Positions 30,179 to 41,580 of a DNA stretch of 64,000 nt are shown here, piece by piece. The notes under the pieces are model-generated. The model saw nothing but the letters and a program-made list of their open reading frames with translations. It made no database searches and had not been told where the DNA came from. How positions within the stretch are numbered: the first letter of the stretch is position 1; each line of letters starts with the position of its first letter. A program made the translations under genes and the position numbers. The stretch comes from Haliea sp. (lineage in GTDB: Bacteria; Pseudomonadota; Gammaproteobacteria; Pseudomonadales; Halieaceae): the NCBI GenBank assembly GCA_024642245.1, contig JAHEBM010000002.1, positions 62,001 through 126,000 of the forward strand, in the 5' to 3' direction.

Positions 30179-33100
30179 CTACTTCTCGATTGAGGACAGG
30201 TCCTTGGCAACCTCGGACAGTACCTTCGGCCTGCCGATTCCCCAGCCCTGGAGATAGTCCACGCCGATCTCGCGTAACTTTTCCACGATCTTGTCGTTCT
30301 CGACGGACTCGGCGATGGTTTCCTGGCCCAGGAAGTGAGCCAGGTCATTGATGGAGCGGGCGATGGCATAGTCATTGCGATTATTGTGGATATTGGTGAC
30401 GAAACTGCCGTCGATCTTGACGTAATCTACCGGTAGTTCCCGCAGGTAGTTGTGGCTCGCCAGGCCAGTGCCGAAGTCGTCGATCGAAAACTTGCAGCCG
30501 ATGTTGCGAAAAGCACGGACGAAATCCGCCGCCTTCACCAGGTTGGATATGGTACCGGTCTCGGTAATCTCGAAACAGATCCTACTGGTACCTACCCCGT
30601 ACTCCGATATCTGCTCGAACAGGTAATCCATGAAGCTGTCGTCTGTCACGCTGGTGCCAGACAGGTTGATCGAGAGACTGGGCACGACCTTCTGGGCGTC
30701 CATCAGCTGACTGATCCAGCTGAACGCTTCCTTTACTACCCAGCGGTCAACCAGCGTCATGAAGCCATAGCGTTCGGCAGACACGATAAAATCCTGCGGC
30801 GAAGCCAGCGAACCGTCCTTGTTGGCCAGGCCCAGGAGCAGTTCATAGTGCTGCTGTTCGACGACATCCCCGGTAATCCGGGTCTGCACAATGGGCTGTG
30901 CCTGCAGCACGAAACGGTCCGTGGCCACCGCCTGTTCAAGATCCCGTTTGACCCGCAATTTATCCTTGGTATAGGTGCTTGCGGAGGACTGGTCCTCTTC
31001 ATATTGCACGACCCGATTGCGGCCCTGCTGCTTGGCGAGGTGCATCGTGGTGCGGGCTGTATTGAGAATCTGGCCCACGTCAGGGCTGTGCTCCCTGATG
31101 GGTACCACACCGACAGAAACGGTAAAACCGATCTTTTCGCCGTTGATATCGACGCTGCTGACCTCAATGTCCCGGCGGATTTTTTCCGCTATCTGCATCG
31201 CCTGCTCCATGCTGCGGTCCAGCAGCAGCACGGCGAAACTGTCGGACTCGATTCTGGCAGACGAGGACTTCTTGCTGTGGAGTTGCGCCAGCAGCCGGGC
31301 AAACTCGAGTAACACCTGGTCACCGTGGACACGGTCGTAAACCTCATTGACGAGGCTGAACTGGTCGATATTCAGATAGAGCACGGCGTGCTGCGAGAGT
31401 TTCTGCTGTGCGTGGCGCAAAGCCCGGCCCATCTGGTCGAGGAAGGTGGCGCGATTGATCAGCTTGGTAAGTGTGTCGTGGTTGCGCGCAAAACTCAGGG
31501 TTTTCTGCACATGTTCCAGGGTCTGGTACAGGCTCTTGTCGACCACCGAGAGCTTGTCAGCCGGGGCGGGCGGCTGCATACCGCGACTCAGTTGGCGTGC
31601 CAGCTGTATGTTGCTGAGATCCGCGATTTTCTGGCCGCGTTCGTTGACAAAGATGAAGCGGTCACGCTCCTGGCTTGTCCAGGCCAACTGCATACGGAGC
31701 TTCTGCCCCGCTTTGTCCCGGTATGTCAGCCAGGTCCCTGTTTCAAGTTCCTCGACGCGCATCACCCAGCGCCGCAACCGGGGAAGGTCCTCTATCTTGG
31801 CGCGTACCTGGGCGGGCTCCACCAGCTGTTGCGGCACCGAGCCGGAACCGTTGATGAAATCCACCGCCCGGGTGCCGGCGACAATCTCGCGCAGTTCGTC
31901 CAGGGCGTGCTGGTGGGCAACACTGGTAGGCAGGGCCGAGGCGATCTGCTGCTCGAGCATGTCGATCAGGGTTTCCGCTTCCAGGCCCCGCTGGGTCATC
32001 ATTTCATCATTTGCATCACCCTGGTTCCGCTCGTCGAGCCAGAGCGAAAACTGGTCAAGGGTTTTCAGCTGGTCTTTCCATCCCCTGCTATGCGGGCCCT
32101 CCTTGATATGGGTGAGTACCAGCAGGTCGCGCAGCCCGCTGTCCACCAGGTCGACCAGTACTCGTGGCGCGTGCTCTGTCCTGACCTTGGCGGCGATCAC
32201 CTTGTCGACGGCTTGCTGGGCCTTCAGTAATTTTTCCTGGCCTTCCTGGATGCGCACCACGCGTTCGACGTTGCGCGAGAGGGCCCTTTCCTGCTGGGCC
32301 ACCAGCTTGTCGATTTTCAGCAGGGCATTGTCGAATACCGCGTTGTCGCTGTCGTAATCCGCAACGATCTGGTCGACGATTTCCGTGATTCGGGTTTCCA
32401 GGGCCTTGTTGGGAAAGTTGGCCGAGCTGGACAGTTTCGCCAGTTTATCCAGCACGATGCGGGCGGGGTGACCGCGATCGAGGAAGAAGTGCTGATCCAG
32501 CAGCGCGAGCTTGGCCAGGGGGATATGCAGGCCACCGAGTGCCGGCCGCAATTCCTGGCTGACGTCGAGTTGGGACTTGATCGTTCCAAACAGGTTGTCT
32601 ACCAGGTCGAGCTGGTTGAGGCTGTCGGCGGTGAGTCCCTCGGTATCGCTGAGTTCTGCCAACTGCTGCTTGTTGTTGGCGAGATATTCGCGCAGCGAAT
32701 TGCCCTGTTCCACCGCGGCGCGCACCCGGGCATCGTGCTGCAGGGCTCCCAGGGCGCGCGCGATGTTATCGGCATTGGCCAGCTTCTGCCGCCCGGCACC
32801 GCCGTCCAGGCTGGTCCCGTCCCAGCTGCCGCCGGCAGGGGCCGCATCGTAGCTGTGGGCCTGGGCTGGCGCGGCATCATCGGCCGATCGCCGGAAGTTC
32901 AGTGCGTCAATAACAGACTTGTAGATGTTGTCGTATTTGGCCTGCTGGCTTCCCGGTGGTGCCGCGGGGGCAGCCTGGGGTGACTTGGCGCCCGAAATCG
33001 ACCTGGCCATTTCCGCGAGGGTAGGACCGCCCGTGGTTTCCGGCGCCCTGCCAGCGTTGCCTTCACTGTGCTGGTCTGTCGCTTGCACGGTGGTGGGCGC

Positions 33101-34153
33101 CTTGCGGATGACCGGCTTGGGCGGTTTTCCCCGGTTGAGCAGCGTGCCCTTGGCCGAAATTTCCCGCTCCAGGTCGGGGCGGATACCCTGGTGGGCAAGC
33201 TCCTGGTTGAGTTGCAGGTAATAACTCTCCAGGCTCTTCATGAATTCGCGCGTAAGGTAATCGAATATTTTCAACAGGACTGGCGCGGGGTAACGCTGGG
33301 ACGTGATGGTGCGCTGGAACGCACGACTGAGGTGCCGAATGTGTATGGGTAAGCGGACCCTGTTCGGGTCTTCGCCGATCAGGGTCGCATAACGGATGAC
33401 CAGTGCCTCCAGCGGCACCCGGTAGGTTTCTTCTCCATGGGTGATCATGCGGTCGAGTGCCAGTGAGCTTTCGAACTCCGCGGTATCCACCAGGTTGAGA
33501 TCCCCCTTCTCGCCAGAAACGGGTGATTGCAGGTAGTCCTGCATTTTGGCCGGGGTGGGATCGCGATACAGCTCGGCGAGCTGTTTGATGACGTCAGCGG
33601 CCAACTCGCCTTTATTGCGCCGGATAGCCACGGTGGCGTCGTAGAATATGTTCTGGTCGGAACTGGAGTGTTTGACCTGGGTGGACAGGTCAAAAAGGTA
33701 ATTCGCCAGATCCGACAGGAAAGGTTTGATCAATGGCTCCAGCTGCGCCAGGCTCCTTTCCCGCAGGGAATCGAGGATCTGCACATACCCGGCTGCAATT
33801 TCCGGTGTAGCGGGTTTTGCGATAGCGCCGCTGAGCCTGGCGAGCAGCTGTCTGGCAGCATCAGAGTCAGGGGTCTGCAGGGCTAAAACCAGGCTGTCCC
33901 CACTGACCTTCAGCACGGTGACCTTACTGGCCGCAGTGGGGCTGCCAGTGTCGGGCTCGTCCATCGCCAGTTGCGCCGTGGTGCCGGTCCTTGCCGCCGG
34001 TGGCTGCCCTGAAGATGGCTTGCGGATAATTCGGGCAGTGGCCAGCTGCAAATCGCCACCCGGGAGCATGGACAACTCGCCGGCGAGGCGTGTGCCATCC
34101 TCCAGTTCGAGTTTGGCCTGGCGCTCGCCCGGCTGGCTTAAGGGTTCAGGCAT
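30179..34153 (-). CDS. DUF1631-GGDEF-EAL multidomain protein
   Basis: 1324 aa. Residues about 70-730 form a DUF1631-like region, largely helical with coiled-coil stretches. About 740-830 is a PilZ-like or linker segment (RRWVMRVEELETGTWLTYR). A GGDEF domain follows, but its signature is degenerate (RIESDSFAVLLL). An EAL domain ends the protein with catalytic elements mostly kept: INLSGTSV, FEITETG, DDFGTGLASH, YVKIDGSFV and YLQGWGIGRP. The EAL signature itself reads ELL with Gly for the usual Arg. The start at 34153 (MPEPLSQ) is supported by AGAGG and by a promoter that would leave too little leader for the 34213 start. It most likely degrades or senses cyclic-di-GMP. Confidence 0.8.
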   Translation of the reverse strand: MPEPLSQPGERQAKLELEDGTRLAGELSMLPGGDLQLATARIIRKPSSGQPPAARTGTTAQLAMDEPDTGSPTAASKVTVLKVSGDSLVLALQTPDSDAARQLLARLSGAIAKPATPEIAAGYVQILDSLRERSLAQLEPLIKPFLSDLANYLFDLSTQVKHSSSDQNIFYDATVAIRRNKGELAADVIKQLAELYRDPTPAKMQDYLQSPVSGEKGDLNLVDTAEFESSLALDRMITHGEETYRVPLEALVIRYATLIGEDPNRVRLPIHIRHLSRAFQRTITSQRYPAPVLLKIFDYLTREFMKSLESYYLQLNQELAHQGIRPDLEREISAKGTLLNRGKPPKPVIRKAPTTVQATDQHSEGNAGRAPETTGGPTLAEMARSISGAKSPQAAPAAPPGSQQAKYDNIYKSVIDALNFRRSADDAAPAQAHSYDAAPAGGSWDGTSLDGGAGRQKLANADNIARALGALQHDARVRAAVEQGNSLREYLANNKQQLAELSDTEGLTADSLNQLDLVDNLFGTIKSQLDVSQELRPALGGLHIPLAKLALLDQHFFLDRGHPARIVLDKLAKLSSSANFPNKALETRITEIVDQIVADYDSDNAVFDNALLKIDKLVAQQERALSRNVERVVRIQEGQEKLLKAQQAVDKVIAAKVRTEHAPRVLVDLVDSGLRDLLVLTHIKEGPHSRGWKDQLKTLDQFSLWLDERNQGDANDEMMTQRGLEAETLIDMLEQQIASALPTSVAHQHALDELREIVAGTRAVDFINGSGSVPQQLVEPAQVRAKIEDLPRLRRWVMRVEELETGTWLTYRDKAGQKLRMQLAWTSQERDRFIFVNERGQKIADLSNIQLARQLSRGMQPPAPADKLSVVDKSLYQTLEHVQKTLSFARNHDTLTKLINRATFLDQMGRALRHAQQKLSQHAVLYLNIDQFSLVNEVYDRVHGDQVLLEFARLLAQLHSKKSSSARIESDSFAVLLLDRSMEQAMQIAEKIRRDIEVSSVDINGEKIGFTVSVGVVPIREHSPDVGQILNTARTTMHLAKQQGRNRVVQYEEDQSSASTYTKDKLRVKRDLEQAVATDRFVLQAQPIVQTRITGDVVEQQHYELLLGLANKDGSLASPQDFIVSAERYGFMTLVDRWVVKEAFSWISQLMDAQKVVPSLSINLSGTSVTDDSFMDYLFEQISEYGVGTSRICFEITETGTISNLVKAADFVRAFRNIGCKFSIDDFGTGLASHNYLRELPVDYVKIDGSFVTNIHNNRNDYAIARSINDLAHFLGQETIAESVENDKIVEKLREIGVDYLQGWGIGRPKVLSEVAKDLSSIEK

Positions 34154-34224
34154 TTGACCTCTGCTTAATGGGACAATCCCGGGTGTCGGCCACCCGGCAT
34201 GCAACAATTCCATGTCGTGCCGGC

Positions 34225-34320: not shown

Positions 34321-35046
34321 CTATCTGGCCCCGGCGCGTGGCAGGGAAACACTGGTGCCGCTGACGTAGGAGGCCAGTGCTGACGCGAGGAACAGGCACG
34401 CGCCGCCCGGATCGGTAGCGTCGCCGGTACTGGTCGATGATGTTCCCGGGTCCCTTGCAGCGTCGCCCCGGCGGGGTGTGGACTGCTCCGTTTGGGTCAG
34501 CTCCATTACCAGGGTGTTGATCCGCACCCGCGGCGCCCACTCGACTGCCAGCGATGTACCAAGGTTGGCCACTCCGGCATCGGCGGCATCCCGGGCAGCC
34601 CTGTCGGGGGTACCCGGCGCTGAGCCCGGCCGGGTAACATTGATGATGCAGCCGCCGTCCCTCTGCTCCTGCATCACCCGGTTGGCCACCTGGCAGAAGT
34701 TGAGCGCGGTCACCAGGCGCTGGCGAATAATCGATTCTCCGTTGGAGAGTGCGTTCGTGTCTTCGGGAAACACGTCTCCCGGGGCGTTGACCAGCACATC
34801 GATGTGGCCAAAGTGCGCCGCGACCTGTCCGATGCAGGTCTCTATCTGTGCATAGTCGGACAGGTCACAGCCGGCGTATGCAAGCTCTCGCCCGGTGCTT
34901 GTGGCCAGGCCCGGTTCCTGCGAGTGCTCACAGACGACGACCGCGGCACCCGCGCCCAGGAACGCCTGCGCGATAGCACTGCCTGTGCCGGTACCGCCAC
35001 TGCTGACAACCACGACCTTGCCGCTAAAATCCAGCGCGTTGCTCAT
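34321..35046 (-). CDS. SDR-fold protein lacking the catalytic Tyr/Lys (probable pseudoenzyme)
   Basis: 241 aa with a recognisable SDR fold: SSGGTGTGSAIAQAF nucleotide loop, DVLVNAPG (in place of NNAG), and NLGTSLAVEWAPRVRINTL. At the YxxxK position it reads RDAAD (Arg152, Asp156), and the catalytic Ser strand reads INVTRPG. The reductase chemistry is therefore unlikely. The start at 35046 follows AGGGGAG; the C-terminus (GTSSTSTGDATD) is low-complexity. It is transcribed divergently from npdG across about 160 bases. A structural or regulatory role for the F420 operon is possible but unproven. Confidence 0.8.
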   Translation of the reverse strand: MSNALDFSGKVVVVSSGGTGTGSAIAQAFLGAGAAVVVCEHSQEPGLATSTGRELAYAGCDLSDYAQIETCIGQVAAHFGHIDVLVNAPGDVFPEDTNALSNGESIIRQRLVTALNFCQVANRVMQEQRDGGCIINVTRPGSAPGTPDRAARDAADAGVANLGTSLAVEWAPRVRINTLVMELTQTEQSTPRRGDAARDPGTSSTSTGDATDPGGACLFLASALASYVSGTSVSLPRAGAR

Positions 35047-35208
35047 ATAATTGGACTCCCCTGGCCGTGCCGCCGCCACAGCTTGTGGTTGGCGGGGTAT
35101 TTACATAAGATGCCTCGGCCGCGACCATCCTAACCGAATTTATGGGGGCGCGATATTCCGGGCAGCGAATCTTCGCATACCCAGGACCGATGACAGGATG
35201 TACTGATT

Positions 35209-35892
35209 ATGACCACAGACAAATTACCCGTGCTTGCGATCCTCGGTGGCACTGGAGACCTCGGAACCGGCCTGGCCCGGCGCTGGGCCCAGGCCGGTTA
35301 CCAGGTCATTATCGGCTCGCGCACTCAGGAAAAAGCCGAGGCGGCGGTGGCCGACCTGCGCGAGGTGATGGCGGAGCGTGGCGTCGGTGCGGTAAGCGTC
35401 CAGGCGATGGCTAATCTGGAGGCGGCCAGTGCCGCTGACATCGTGACCCTTACGGTCCCTTTCAGCCACCAGGCGAGCACCCTGGAGTCGGTGAGGCAGG
35501 CATTGCAGGGAAAAATCCTTATCGATGTGACCGTCCCGCTGGTTCCACCGAAGGTGGCGAGGGTGCAATTGCCGCCACAGGGCAGCGCGGGGCAGATTGC
35601 GCAGGAGCTGCTGGGCGAGGATGTCTCGGTGGTCTCGGCATTCCAGAACGTGGCCGCGGCACACCTGCAGGAGGGCAAGGGCGTCGAGTGCGATGTTCTG
35701 GTCAGTGGCAACAGGAAAGAGGCGCGCGAAGAAGTGATCAAACTGGTCGAGGCGGCGGGCATGCGGGGGTTTCACGCGGGTATGATTAACAACGCCGCCG
35801 CGGCGGAGGCGCTGACCTCTGTCCTTATTACCATAAACAAGCAATACGGTTGCCACGCCGGTATCAAAATCAGTGGGCTGGACGATGCCTGA
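35209..35892 (+). CDS. npdG: F420H2:NADP oxidoreductase
   Basis: 227 aa Rossmann-fold enzyme that exchanges hydride between NADPH and coenzyme F420. It opens LAILGGTGDLGTGLARRWAQ and has the NADP-preferring IIGSRTQEKAE loop after strand 2. The TVPFSHQ and SAFQNVAAAHL segments match the Fno/NpdG family. It heads the F420 operon, supplying reduced F420 or recovering NADPH. Its stop overlaps the cofE start (TGATG). Confidence 0.92.
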   Translation: MTTDKLPVLAILGGTGDLGTGLARRWAQAGYQVIIGSRTQEKAEAAVADLREVMAERGVGAVSVQAMANLEAASAADIVTLTVPFSHQASTLESVRQALQGKILIDVTVPLVPPKVARVQLPPQGSAGQIAQELLGEDVSVVSAFQNVAAAHLQEGKGVECDVLVSGNRKEAREEVIKLVEAAGMRGFHAGMINNAAAAEALTSVLITINKQYGCHAGIKISGLDDA

Positions 35893-36659
35893 TGCCGATG
35901 CGGCTGGAGCTGATCGCACTTGAAGGTTTTCCCCTGGTCGAGCCGGGGGACAACCTGGCGCAAATGCTGGCGGATGGCCTCCAGCGCAACGGACTGCAAC
36001 TGCAGCCCGGGGATGTATTGGTGATCGCCCAGAAGGTTGTCTCAAAGGCCGAGGGTCGCTACGTGCGCCTGGCGGACGTGAGGGCGGGCGCCGAGGCTGA
36101 GGCCCTGGCGCAGCAGGCGGGGAAAGACCCGCGGCAGGTCGAACTGATCCTGGCGGAGAGCCGCGAAGTCATCCGGGTGCGTCCCGGGGTTATCATTGTC
36201 GAGCACCGCAACGGTTACGTACACGCCAACGCCGGTATCGACCGGTCGAATATTACCAATAGCGCGGAAGACCCGCGGGTATTGCTTTTGCCCGTGGACC
36301 CGGACGCCTCTGCCCGGGCACTGCGCCGGGACCTGGCCGTGCTCACCGGCGTGGAGGTCCAGGTTATCATTAACGATAGCGCCGGGCGTGCATGGCGCAA
36401 CGGCACTGTCGGGATCGCCATCGGTACCGCGGGCCTGGCCCCGGTGCGCGACCAGATTGGCGAGCTGGATATGTTCGGTAACGTGCTGCAGGTGACAGAG
36501 CCGGCGGAAGCGGATGAGCTCGCGGCGGCTGCCTCACTCCTTATGGGCCAGTCGACCCAGGGCCGTCCCGTGGTGCTGGCGCGCGGGGCGAACCTGCTCG
36601 CTTCGGAAGAGGGTTCAGGAAAATTGATTCGCGACCGGGCCATGGACCTGTTCCGCTGA
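35892..36659 (+). CDS. cofE: F420-0:gamma-L-glutamate ligase
   Basis: 255 aa CofE-family ligase that adds gamma-linked glutamates to F420-0 using GTP. Family segments are PGDVLVIAQKVVSKAEGR, IIVEHRNGYVHANAGIDRSN and VIINDSAGRAWRNGTVGIAIG. It is CofE only: the fused C-terminal flavin reductase domain of actinobacterial FbiB is absent. The start at 35892 is used instead of the ORF track 35850 because it couples to npdG by TGATG; the ATG at 35898 is also possible. Confidence 0.93.
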   Translation: MPMRLELIALEGFPLVEPGDNLAQMLADGLQRNGLQLQPGDVLVIAQKVVSKAEGRYVRLADVRAGAEAEALAQQAGKDPRQVELILAESREVIRVRPGVIIVEHRNGYVHANAGIDRSNITNSAEDPRVLLLPVDPDASARALRRDLAVLTGVEVQVIINDSAGRAWRNGTVGIAIGTAGLAPVRDQIGELDMFGNVLQVTEPAEADELAAAASLLMGQSTQGRPVVLARGANLLASEEGSGKLIRDRAMDLFR

Positions 36660-37621
36660 TGGCAGCCGTGCAAGGGGATGTCCTGGCGCTCTCCGGGGGG
36701 GTTGGCGGGGCCAAGCTGGCACTGGGCCTGGCGGATGTGCTTGCCCCGGGTCGACTTCACGTACTGGTCAATACGGCGGATGATTTCCGGCACCTGGGGC
36801 TTTATATATGCCCCGATATCGATACCTTGCTGTATACCCTGTCGGGGCGCGCCAACTCGACGCTGGGGTGGGGGCTGGAAGGGGAGACCTGGCAGACCAT
36901 GAGCGCGCTGGAACAACTGGGAGCCGATGCCTGGTTCAGGCTGGGTGACCGGGATATGGCGACTCACCTGTGGCGCACCGAGCAGTTGGCCGGGGGAATG
37001 CGACTTACCGCTTTTACCGCTTTGCTGGCCGAGCGCCTGTCCGTCAGCAGCCATATTCACCCGATGACAAATGACCGGGTCCGCACTATCGTGCATACCG
37101 ACAGCGGCGACCTCCCTTTCCAGCACTATTTTGTCCGTGACCAGTGTAAACCTGCGGTGACCGGCTTCAGTTTCGACGGTATTTCCGCCGCTCATCCCAA
37201 CCGGGATGTCATGCGCCTGCTGCAGCAGAAGGCGTTCGCGCAGGTGCTGATCTGTCCCTCCAACCCGTTCGTGAGCATAGACCCCATACTGCAATTGCCG
37301 GGCCTGTGGCTTGCCCTGCGGGAAAGCCCCGCCCCCGTGGTGGTGGTGTCACCCATCGTCGCCGGACTCGCCCTGAAGGGGCCGGCCGCCAAGATGATGG
37401 CGGAACTTGGAATGGTGTCTTCCGCGCTGGAAGTTGCCCGTCATTACAGCCAGCGCTACCCCGGGCTCATGGACTGCTTCGTGATCGACGAAAGTGACGC
37501 TACACTTGCCGGGGCTATTCGGGAGCTGGGGGTTGAGGTGGCCATTACATCGACGGTTATGAAGAGCAGGGCCGACAAGCAGGACCTTGCCCGTTTCGCA
37601 CTGGGTTTGCGCGGGAGCTGA
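36659..37621 (+). CDS. cofD: 2-phospho-L-lactate (or related) transferase
   Basis: 320 aa CofD/FbiA family. It opens LALSGGVGGAKLALGLADVL, the diagnostic phosphate-binding motif, then VNTADDFRHLGLYICPDIDTL. CofD joins the nucleotide-activated phospho-acid to the deazaflavin FO, making F420-0 (or the dehydro form). It starts by TGATG overlap with cofE and ends 5 bases before cofC. Confidence 0.95.
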   Translation: MAAVQGDVLALSGGVGGAKLALGLADVLAPGRLHVLVNTADDFRHLGLYICPDIDTLLYTLSGRANSTLGWGLEGETWQTMSALEQLGADAWFRLGDRDMATHLWRTEQLAGGMRLTAFTALLAERLSVSSHIHPMTNDRVRTIVHTDSGDLPFQHYFVRDQCKPAVTGFSFDGISAAHPNRDVMRLLQQKAFAQVLICPSNPFVSIDPILQLPGLWLALRESPAPVVVVSPIVAGLALKGPAAKMMAELGMVSSALEVARHYSQRYPGLMDCFVIDESDATLAGAIRELGVEVAITSTVMKSRADKQDLARFALGLRGS

Positions 37622-37626
37622 CGGCA

Positions 37627-38349
37627 GTGACACAGGCATTGGTACCCTTGAAAGACCTGGTGCGGGCAAAAACCCGCCTCGCCGGCCTGCTGAGCCCATC
37701 GGAACGACGCGCGCTGGCCCAGGCAATGGTGGAAGACGTGCTGGCCGTGCTGGCCGCCCACCCGGGAATCGAGCGCACAACGCTCGTTTCGGATGACCCC
37801 TGCGCCTATCTCCTGGCCGCGCGGTACGGCGCCGGTCACTGGCTGGAGAGCGAGCTGGGATGCACCGGGCTGAATGGGGTAGTCAGTCGCGCCGCCGACA
37901 GGCTGCTGGCCGAGGGCGCCGGGTCTGTACTGGTATTACATGCGGACCTGCCCCTGCTCACAGCAGCGGATATCAGCGCTGTGCTCAGCGCTGCACGCGA
38001 CGGCAGCAAACTGGTCATTGGCAGCGACCGCCATGGCGTGGGCACCAACCTGTTGTGTTTTGGTGGTGCTACTGCCCCGACGTTTTCTTTTGGCGAAAAC
38101 AGTTGCGAGCGTCACCTGGCTGCCGCACGGGCGCGGGGTATACCGGTGACAGTGCTGCGCAGCCGGGGCATCGGGCTGGACCTGGATGAACCGCGGGACC
38201 TGCGGGCCCTGTTGCAGAACCTCGATGGGTTGAGCCGGTCACAGACTGCCCACTTCCTGGAACAGGCGGGCCTGGGCTCACGCATCAGCCTGGCGCTGGC
38301 GTCGCTGGAGCCGGGCGAATCGTCCCTGGACACAGGGGAGGTCCGCTGA
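37627..38349 (+). CDS. cofC: Phospholactate-type guanylyltransferase
   Basis: 240 aa nucleotidyltransferase of the CofC/FbiD family. The opening ALVPLKDLVRAKTRLAGLLS and ADLPLLTAADI are family hallmarks. It activates 2-phospholactate, phosphoenolpyruvate or 3-phosphoglycerate with GTP; the substrate cannot be decided from motif inspection. It uses a GTG start. The C-terminal 35 residues (SRSQTAHFLEQAG...) extend beyond the usual domain. Its stop overlaps the fbiC start (TGATG). Confidence 0.9.
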   Translation: MTQALVPLKDLVRAKTRLAGLLSPSERRALAQAMVEDVLAVLAAHPGIERTTLVSDDPCAYLLAARYGAGHWLESELGCTGLNGVVSRAADRLLAEGAGSVLVLHADLPLLTAADISAVLSAARDGSKLVIGSDRHGVGTNLLCFGGATAPTFSFGENSCERHLAAARARGIPVTVLRSRGIGLDLDEPRDLRALLQNLDGLSRSQTAHFLEQAGLGSRISLALASLEPGESSLDTGEVR

Positions 38350-40874
38350 TGGCGCATTGGGAAGTACTGCGTGCCGATCTGCTGGCGGGGCGCCATCTCA
38401 CGCGTGAGCAGGCACTGGCCCTGGCCGAGATCCCCGAGACGCACGCGCTCGCCACCGTGGCCGGCGAGCTGCGCGACCGGGGTTTTGGCGCCGTGGTAAC
38501 TTACTCGCGCAAGGTATTTATCCCGCTGACTCACCTGTGCCGCGACGTCTGCCATTACTGCACCTTTGCCCGGACACCGAAAAAAATCGGGCAGCCGTTC
38601 ATGGATGTTGAGCAGGTGCTGGAGCTGTGCCGCGAGGGCGCGCGTCTGGGTTGCCAGGAAGCGCTGTTTACCCTGGGGGAGAAACCTGAGTTGCGCTACA
38701 GCGCGGCGCGGCGCGCGCTGGCCGACCTGGGTTTTGCCGACACCCTGTCCTACCTGCGGTATGTGGCGTCGCGCGTGCTGGCTGAAACCGGCTTGTTGCC
38801 CCATATCAATGCGGGTTGCATGACCGCCGCGGAGATCGCCGGCCTGCGCCAGGTAAGCGCCTCGATGGGTATAATGCTGGAGTCCGCCTCCGACCGCCTG
38901 TGTGAAAAAGGTATGCCGCACTACGGTTCACCGGACAAGAATCCCGCCGCGCGCCTGCAAACGCTGGAACTGGCGGGCCAGGCGGCAGTACCGTTCACTT
39001 CCGGCATCCTTATCGGTATAGGTGAGACCCGGCGAGAGCGTGTGGAGTCCCTGCTTGCACTGCGGGAAGTGCATGCGCGTCATGGTCACCTGCAGGAAGT
39101 GATCGTGCAGAACTTCCGGGCCAAGCCCGGTACACTGATGGCGTCGTCCCCCGAACCAGACCTCAACGAGTTGCTGTGGACCATCGCCGTGGCTCGCCTG
39201 GTCTTCGGCCCCCACATGAGTATCCAGGCACCCCCCAATCTCAGCCCGGGTGTATTGCCGCAACTGGTCGCGGCCGGTATCAACGACTGGGGCGGCGTGT
39301 CTCCGCTGACGCCCGACCATGTCAACCCCGAGGCACCCTGGCCACACCTGGACAAGCTGGCACTGGAGACGGCCGCCGCAGGGAAGTTCCTCGATCAGCG
39401 GCTTACGGTCTACCCCGCCTACGCCAGCGACGCGGAGCGTTGGCTGGACCCGGCGGTGCGCACCGCGGTGCTGCGCCACAGCGACAGCATGGGGTTTGCC
39501 CGGCGCGACGCGTGGGTGCCGGGTGAGGAGGGCGCAATTCCGCCTGTGGAGGCGCAATTGCTGCGCCTTGATCCATCGCCAGATTCCGTATCGCCGGAAA
39601 TCACGGCGATTGTCGATGCCTGTAGCGCGCAGGCCGATGTGAGCGAGGCGGATATTGCGCGCCTGTTTGAGGCCAGGGGCGCGGATTTCGCCTTTGTCGT
39701 GCGCAGGGCCGACCAGTTGCGCAGGCAGGTCAATGGCGACACGGTGAGCTACGTTGTCAACCGCAATATCAATTACACCAACGTATGCTATTTCAAGTGC
39801 CAGTTCTGCGCATTTTCCAAGGGAAAGCACAGCGAGGACCTGCGTGGCCGCCCCTACGATATCAGCGGTGAGGACATTGCGGGGCGTTGTCGCGAGGCCT
39901 GGCACCGGGGTGCGACAGAAGTTTGCATGCAGGGAGGAATTCACCCGGATTACACGGGCCAGACCTACCTCGATATTCTGCACACGGTTCACGCCGCGAC
40001 ACCCGGTATGCATGTCCATGCCTTTTCTCCATTGGAAGTGTCACAGGGTGCGGCGACCCTCGGTGTGGACATCGAAAGTTTCCTTCGCCAGCTCAAGGAG
40101 GCCGGCTTGAACACCTTGCCCGGTACCGCGGCGGAGGTGTTGCACGACGAGGTGCGCGCGCGGCTGTGCCCGGACAAGCTGGACACCGCCCGGTGGCTGG
40201 AGGTGATGGAGACGGCCCACCGCGTTGGCCTGCCGACCACAGCGACCATCATGTACGGCCACATCGACCTGCCCCGTCACTGGGCACGGCACCTGCGACT
40301 TATTCGCGACCTGCAGCGGCGGACAGGCGGCTTCACCGAGTTTGTGCCCCTGCCCTTTGTGCACATGGAAGCGCCCATGTATCTCAAGGGTAATGCCCGG
40401 CGTGGCCCCACTTTCCGGGAGGCGGTGTTGATGCACGCGGTGGCGCGTGTGGTGCTGCATGGCCTGATCGACAATATCCAGGCTTCCTGGGTGAAAATGG
40501 GCGAGCAGGGCGTGGCCGCGTGCCTCGCCGCCGGCGTGAACGACCTTGGCGGTACGCTCATGAATGAGAGCATTACCCGGGCCGCGGGCTCCGGCCACGG
40601 CCAGGAATGGGAGCCGGCCTTCATGGAGCGGCAGATACTCGCCGCCGGCCGGGTGCCGCGCATGCGGACCACCCTTTACGCCGATGCGGGATCCCAGCGG
40701 CGCCAGGCAGCGTTTAATGCCTCGCCGCTGGCGCCAGTGGAGAACGCCGGGGCCGGCAAGCGGGAACGCTCGAAGCGCCTGGTGCCGCTGGAAGCCGTGC
40801 GCTGGTTGTCCGGGCAGCAGGAACCCGAGAACCTGGTCTATGAACAGGTTATCCTGATGGCGGCCTGTAACTGA
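38349..40874 (+). CDS. fbiC: FO synthase (CofG-CofH fusion)
   Basis: 841 aa fusion of two radical SAM enzymes that make the deazaflavin FO from tyrosine and the flavin precursor. The CofG half (about 50-380) carries CRDVCHYCTFA; the CofH half (about 450-830) carries CYFKCQFCAFSKG. Both have the CxxxCxxC cluster. Signature segments GVSPLTPDHVNPEAPWP and MQGGIHPDYTG support each half. This bacterial fused form is like actinobacterial FbiC, rather than the separate CofG and CofH of methanogens and some bacteria. It ends the F420 operon, 16 bases before ung. Confidence 0.96.
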   Translation: MAHWEVLRADLLAGRHLTREQALALAEIPETHALATVAGELRDRGFGAVVTYSRKVFIPLTHLCRDVCHYCTFARTPKKIGQPFMDVEQVLELCREGARLGCQEALFTLGEKPELRYSAARRALADLGFADTLSYLRYVASRVLAETGLLPHINAGCMTAAEIAGLRQVSASMGIMLESASDRLCEKGMPHYGSPDKNPAARLQTLELAGQAAVPFTSGILIGIGETRRERVESLLALREVHARHGHLQEVIVQNFRAKPGTLMASSPEPDLNELLWTIAVARLVFGPHMSIQAPPNLSPGVLPQLVAAGINDWGGVSPLTPDHVNPEAPWPHLDKLALETAAAGKFLDQRLTVYPAYASDAERWLDPAVRTAVLRHSDSMGFARRDAWVPGEEGAIPPVEAQLLRLDPSPDSVSPEITAIVDACSAQADVSEADIARLFEARGADFAFVVRRADQLRRQVNGDTVSYVVNRNINYTNVCYFKCQFCAFSKGKHSEDLRGRPYDISGEDIAGRCREAWHRGATEVCMQGGIHPDYTGQTYLDILHTVHAATPGMHVHAFSPLEVSQGAATLGVDIESFLRQLKEAGLNTLPGTAAEVLHDEVRARLCPDKLDTARWLEVMETAHRVGLPTTATIMYGHIDLPRHWARHLRLIRDLQRRTGGFTEFVPLPFVHMEAPMYLKGNARRGPTFREAVLMHAVARVVLHGLIDNIQASWVKMGEQGVAACLAAGVNDLGGTLMNESITRAAGSGHGQEWEPAFMERQILAAGRVPRMRTTLYADAGSQRRQAAFNASPLAPVENAGAGKRERSKRLVPLEAVRWLSGQQEPENLVYEQVILMAACN

Positions 40875-40890: not shown

Positions 40891-41580
40891 ATGAGCAGGT
40901 CAGTGCAATTGGAGCACAGCTGGCTGGCGCGATTGGCGCCGGAGTTTGAAAAGCCCTACATGGATAAGCTGCGTTCTTTCCTGCTGGCAGAAAAAAGAGC
41001 CGGCAAACAGGTTTTTCCGGCAAGCCAGGAGATTTTCAATGCCTTTGCCCACGCGCCCCTGCAGCAGGTCAAGGTGGTGATTCTCGGGCAGGACCCCTAC
41101 CACGGCCCCGGGCAGGCTCACGGCCTGTGCTTTTCGGTCCGGCCCGGCGTGAAAGTGCCGCCGTCACTGCAGAATATTTTCAGGGAAATCGAGTCCGAGC
41201 TGGGTCACCCCGTCCCGGCCCATGGACACCTGGCGGCCTGGGCCGACCAGGGTGTACTGCTGCTGAACAGCGTGTTATCGGTCGAGTGCGGGCGGGCCGC
41301 CTCGCACCAGGGCAAGGGATGGGAGACCTTCACGGACCGCGTCATCGAGGTCATCAACCGCGAGTGCGAACATGTCGTGTTCATGCTCTGGGGCAGCTAT
41401 GCCCAGCGCAAGGGTGCGATTATCGACAGGCACCGGCACTGCGTGCTTAGCGCCCCGCACCCGTCTCCACTGAGTGCCCACCGCGGTTTTTTCGGGTGCG
41501 GGCATTTCAAGGCGGCCAATGAATACCTCCAGGCACACGGCAGGACACCGATAGACTGGAGCTTGCCGACAAAGGCCTGA
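40891..41580 (+). CDS. ung: Uracil-DNA glycosylase
   Basis: 229 aa family 1 UDG that removes uracil from DNA. GQDPYHGPGQAHGLCFSV contains the catalytic Asp, and HPSPLSAHRGF carries the catalytic His and leucine wedge. The start is 16 bases after fbiC, so it may be read through from the F420 operon. It converges on ygfZ with only 6 bases between stops. Confidence 0.97.
   Translation: MSRSVQLEHSWLARLAPEFEKPYMDKLRSFLLAEKRAGKQVFPASQEIFNAFAHAPLQQVKVVILGQDPYHGPGQAHGLCFSVRPGVKVPPSLQNIFREIESELGHPVPAHGHLAAWADQGVLLLNSVLSVECGRAASHQGKGWETFTDRVIEVINRECEHVVFMLWGSYAQRKGAIIDRHRHCVLSAPHPSPLSAHRGFFGCGHFKAANEYLQAHGRTPIDWSLPTKA

Follow-up and report, generated by a model that had tools for sequence, protein, structure and literature searches.

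We found that the genes npdG, cofE, cofD, cofC and fbiC of a Haliea sp. genome constitute a genuine, complete and resident coenzyme F420 operon, and that this operon is an ancient trait, stably passed on in most Halieaceae. The operon itself is of an already known type; its interest lies in family-wide retention, a large predicted set of F420 users, a missing reductase and the likely recurrent fusion of CofC and FbiC. We place high confidence in the overall model, in which a coupled operon would make F420, other enzymes of the cell would spend it, and the genes would descend from a single old insertion that has been inherited since. "Window" refers to the whole stretch of 64,000 nucleotides that was analyzed.

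Gene content and organization of the operon

The host genome is a Halieaceae metagenome-assembled genome (MAG) of 3.66 Mb in 133 contigs, 81% complete. Its closest named relative is Haliea sp. Ww140, with 80-90% protein identity for npdG, cofE, cofD and fbiC, followed by Sediminihaliea albiluteola and Parahaliea mediterranea. The five genes are intact open reading frames (ORFs) on one strand at positions 35209-40874 (Table 1), with the identities given in the original prediction, which called the set a translationally coupled unit. Gene identities were assigned by curated NCBIfam equivalog cutoffs. CofC, CofD, CofE, CofG and CofH, the enzymes by which a bacterial F420 biosynthesis operon is judged complete, are all intact and above their family cutoffs, and FbiC also exceeds those of TIGR03550 and TIGR03551. 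Stop and start codons overlap by one base (TGATG) at three of the four junctions (npdG/cofE, cofE/cofD and cofC/fbiC), again as predicted, and five bases separate cofD from cofC. The operon would thus be a complete, translationally coupled unit for both F420 biosynthesis and reduction. A simple sigma-70 scan of the gap upstream of npdG returned no site.

Table 1. Genes of the F420 operon and its flanks in the window (scores and cutoffs in bits)
Feature	Position	Strand	Product or remark	Model, score (cutoff)
DUF1631-GGDEF-EAL gene	30179-34213	-	left flank of insertion site	
SDR oxidoreductase gene	34321-35079	-	divergent from operon; beside operon in most relatives	
npdG (Fno)	35209-35892	+	NADPH:F420 oxidoreductase	TIGR01915, 201 (150)
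cofE	35892-36659	+	F420-0:L-glutamate ligase, 255 aa	TIGR01916, 272 (181)
cofD	36659-37621	+	transferase joining activated C3 acid to FO	TIGR01819, 280 (257)
cofC	37627-38349	+	guanylyltransferase, GTG start	TIGR03552, 147 (105)
fbiC	38349-40874	+	fused FO synthase (CofG + CofH), two radical-SAM domains	PRK09234, 1162 (1018)
ung	40891-41580	+	uracil-DNA glycosylase; right flank of insertion site	NF003589, 358 (223)

Four of the five proteins aligned with solved enzymes. CofE aligned with 2phn and 7uld, and CofD with 3c3d and the FbiA structure 6uvx. In addition to passing its family cutoff, NpdG matched solved F420:NADP oxidoreductases (5n2i, 1jax/1jay) over most of its length, as is required of an Fno. 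Both radical-SAM Cx3Cx2C motifs are kept in FbiC (CRDVCHYC and CYFKCQFC). Such agreement goes well past what chance would produce. A frameshift or an assembly chimera is very unlikely, because the same five-gene order recurs in dozens of relatives, isolates included, and we have rejected this explanation.

Judging from homology, FbiC would form FO from tyrosine and a ribityl-uracil precursor, CofC would activate a C3 phospho-acid using GTP, CofD would move the activated C3 unit onto FO, and CofE would attach the glutamate tail. NpdG would then charge F420 with hydride from NADPH, and the resulting F420H2 would be consumed by reductases of the LLM, Ddn and PPOX types, whose genes lie elsewhere in the genome. 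F420 operons have been predicted in many other Proteobacteria, and three species, Paracoccus denitrificans, Oligotropha carboxidovorans and Mycetohabitans rhizoxinica, have been demonstrated to produce the cofactor. Such operons contain the same enzymes, a fused FbiC, and Fno as the F420-reducing dehydrogenase (PMC8498797); what sets the Halieaceae operon apart is its fixed chromosomal site through most of the family.

The C3 unit and the final step of F420 biosynthesis

In Mycetohabitans CofC, use of 3-phosphoglycerate (3-PG) depends on Ser162, with contributions from M91, C95 and H145 (PMC8764529). We aligned CofC from the window with the solved structures 6bwg and 7p97; in this alignment S162 of Mrhiz-CofC corresponds to G163 of Mtb-FbiD. 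The window protein has Gly in place of S162, Leu in place of M91, and Val in place of both C95 and H145. At the site of S162, which is diagnostic, every one of the 142 aligned rows has glycine: 72 of 72 from the family and 70 of 70 others, some of which duplicate family genomes. Since these residues are not those of a 3-PG enzyme such as that of M. rhizoxinica, classical F420 is expected, with 2-phospholactate or phosphoenolpyruvate (PEP) as the probable C3 unit.

If PEP is the C3 unit, an additional dehydro-F420 reductase would be required to finish the cofactor. The actinobacterial pathway (FbiA, FbiB, FbiC, FbiD), which is homologous to that of Haliea sp. in FbiC, CofD/FbiA and CofC/FbiD, has such a reductase as the C-terminal domain of FbiB. 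In contrast, CofE of Haliea sp. is a single-domain protein without this domain, and none of the 140 Halieaceae genomes has an FbiB C-terminal domain or FbiE (TIGR03553) above cutoff, the best match scoring 67 bits. For calibration we used Thermomicrobium roseum, which also has CofC and CofD homologs and for which, as for Haliea sp., a PEP route is possible; it differs in having a stand-alone FbiE-like nitroreductase, which is encoded beside cofD/cofC, is treated here as FbiE from its position and score, and reaches 163 bits with TIGR03553. In the searches of the 140 genomes, neither TIGR03553 nor T. roseum FbiE matched the Haliea sp. genome at E <= 0.001, and several operon-bearing genomes that are nearly complete, G043 and G017 among them, gave no TIGR03553 match at this threshold. 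The two nitroreductases of the Haliea sp. genome were considered as candidates and rejected: with the FbiB C-terminal model L099 reaches just 37 bits, and L100 belongs to another nitroreductase type.

The lack of an FbiB C-terminal domain or FbiE would be accounted for if the operon yielded 3PG-F420, the Mycetohabitans variant that requires no dehydro-F420 reductase and is a known proteobacterial answer to such a lack (PMC8764529). However, none of the four CofC specificity positions has the 3-PG-type residue, and Mycetohabitans has no recognized F420-dependent enzymes, whereas the Haliea sp. genome encodes many. We consider production of 3PG-F420 unlikely and reject it on the diagnostic CofC residues. 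With CofC of the non-3-PG type and no homolog of the FbiB C-terminal domain or FbiE, we tentatively suggest, at somewhat below even confidence, that Halieaceae, and perhaps other F420-making Proteobacteria, may have a dehydro-F420 reductase from a family so far not connected with this reaction, or a novel bacterial source of 2-phospholactate.

Enzymes predicted to use F420

Nineteen proteins of the Haliea sp. genome match the LLM superfamily. Thirteen of these exceed F420-specific NCBIfam cutoffs (one by just 0.1 bit), the "F420" names of these families being largely genomic inference, and one further protein exceeds the cutoff of an FMN-type model. None of the nineteen exceeds the Fgd cutoff (TIGR03554) in this 81% complete genome; thus, in contrast to the actinobacterial pathway, F420 would be reduced by Fno. 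NpdG is the sole F420-reducing dehydrogenase recognized in the genome, which makes NADPH the probable electron source. The genome also encodes a Ddn-type protein (109 bits, cutoff 46), a second Ddn-like protein slightly under the cutoff and an Rv2061-type PPOX protein (97 bits, cutoff 85). As in mycobacteria, where these families are known, the LLM, Ddn and PPOX reductases would draw on the reduced cofactor.

The architecture of one protein stands out (L071:646-2466; 607 aa): an N-terminal region of about 275 aa, with no significant Pfam match, is fused to an Rv3520c-type F420-dependent LLM domain.

Ddn-like genes (PF04075) follow cofD across the family. They are present in 66 of 89 cofD-positive and 2 of 51 cofD-negative genomes and, outside a genus that we designate g21, in 65 of 67 and 2 of 16, respectively; the Fisher p values (3e-17 and 5e-12) take no account of relatedness and serve only as description. 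Of the two cofD-negative exceptions, one is a 60%-complete MAG and the other a genome (G117) that carries fbiC sequence, with the fbiC end at a contig edge, beside ung. No PF04075 match was found in 14 control genomes. LLM proteins of the TIGR03617 family track cofD likewise, typically with 10-16 matches per operon-bearing genome outside g21.

The complement of LLM, Ddn-type and PPOX-type reductases, together with the co-occurrence of Ddn-like genes and cofD, indicates that Haliea sp. very probably makes and uses F420, charged by NpdG from NADPH. The original prediction had called production probable; the intact operon and the co-occurring reductases raise this to very probable. That FO is the main product, serving as a photolyase antenna as it does in some organisms (PMC8498797), with the later genes vestigial, is highly improbable, given that cofC, cofD, cofE and npdG are intact, above cutoff and conserved with fbiC family-wide, and that F420-dependent reductases track cofD. 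In the literature searched, we found no report that F420 had been detected biochemically in a member of the Halieaceae.

Distribution and history of the operon in Halieaceae

The genome search proposed in the original prediction found cofD in 89 of 140 Halieaceae genomes (57 of 78 high-quality ones). In a class-wide sample it is above cutoff in 14 of 369 genomes, that of the window included. The trait thus has a stronghold in this family and is sporadic elsewhere. The view that F420 is chiefly archaeal and actinobacterial, with few proteobacterial cases, is out of date: broad occurrence among bacteria was described in a review of 2021 (PMC8498797), and most Halieaceae carry the operon. We found no mention of F420 in the literature searched on Halieaceae genera or in the comparative genomics paper on the family. 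A CofD homolog with 36% identity is also encoded in MT835975.1 (6471-7322), a 14 kb record from human faeces labelled Bacteriophage sp., which may be a misassigned cellular contig.

Outside g21, nearly all sampled genomes share the order DUF1631 - SDR (divergent) - npdG-cofE-cofD-cofC-fbiC - ung - ygfZ. This synteny is kept across about 20 genera, and the DUF1631-to-ygfZ arrangement is also seen in isolates, for example Parahaliea mediterranea. In the window, ung starts 16 bases downstream of fbiC. Ung and ygfZ are flanking genes as originally described; the LuxR-type regulator named with them is not the immediate upstream neighbor and lies beyond the SDR and DUF1631-GGDEF-EAL genes. Twelve cofD-less relatives show the corresponding empty site, in which ung is followed by ygfZ-sdhE-nadB-rpoE-rseA with no operon ahead of ung; in 10 of the 12, DUF1631, matched weakly in g21, lies across from the ygfZ side of ung. 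The divergent SDR gene is absent from the empty sites examined, and where present its conservation (38-49%) falls far below that of npdG (73-91%).

When a tree was built from the flanking genes ung, ygfZ and DUF1631, a branch with support 89 separated all genomes with an occupied site from the others, so that the state of the site changes once; this suggests a single old insertion of the operon into the DUF1631-ung site. The direction of this change depends on the root; one gain is the simpler reading when the groups with empty sites are placed outside. In the operon tree, a branch with support 99 sets the Halieaceae sequences, together with three unassigned MAGs, apart from the rest. Acquisition by an ancestor of Halieaceae is likely: the operon would probably have entered this site once, in the ancestor of most Halieaceae, and been inherited since.

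Recent horizontal acquisition by Haliea sp. itself might be considered in light of the sporadic occurrence of F420 genes in the class (14 of 369 genomes) and of the alpha- and betaproteobacteria, some of which carry cofD on plasmids. The gene order shared by about 20 genera, the matching empty sites and both trees argue against it so strongly that we regard it as extremely unlikely and reject it. Neither do features of a recently transferred element appear: the window contains no tRNA, the operon has no long flanking repeats, its G+C content (0.62-0.66) is inside the range of the window, and close relatives have it too. The earlier description of the operon as resident, free of mobile-element traces and similar in G+C is thus borne out.

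Genus g21 (L158-L167) departs from this pattern. Its small-genome members have the operon at another locus, with no ung beside it, which may reflect relocation or separate acquisition. Nearly all of these small-genome members are without Ddn-like genes, and g21 includes genomes that have cofD at the other locus but no Ddn-like gene.

In 20 of 72 Halieaceae genomes (L123-L138, L149, L155, L168, L180), complete or near-complete ones among them, cofC and fbiC form a single continuous ORF, encoding 1035-1091 aa where a contig end does not interrupt, with linkers of 13-53 aa. In the window the two genes are separate, and CofC has a C-terminal tail of about 43 aa (38220-38349), placed as the fusion linkers are. 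The tail extends past the family model; similar T..YL..SGI..RL-like tails are seen both in further proteobacterial CofCs and in the linkers of the fused proteins. On the operon tree, at least five changes are needed to account for the fused state, and grouping all fused genes in one clade was rejected (AU p 1e-9, for a group named after the tree was seen). Since the outgroups are unfused, recurrent fusion in Halieaceae is likely. The literature searched contains no description of this fusion.

Fused and unfused CofC-FbiC proteins offer a natural series for comparing how precursor supply is organized, and the family poses a biochemical question, namely what finishes F420 without a known reductase. 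Taken together, the results place most of a marine gammaproteobacterial family among probable F420 users, and this use is testable in its culturable members.
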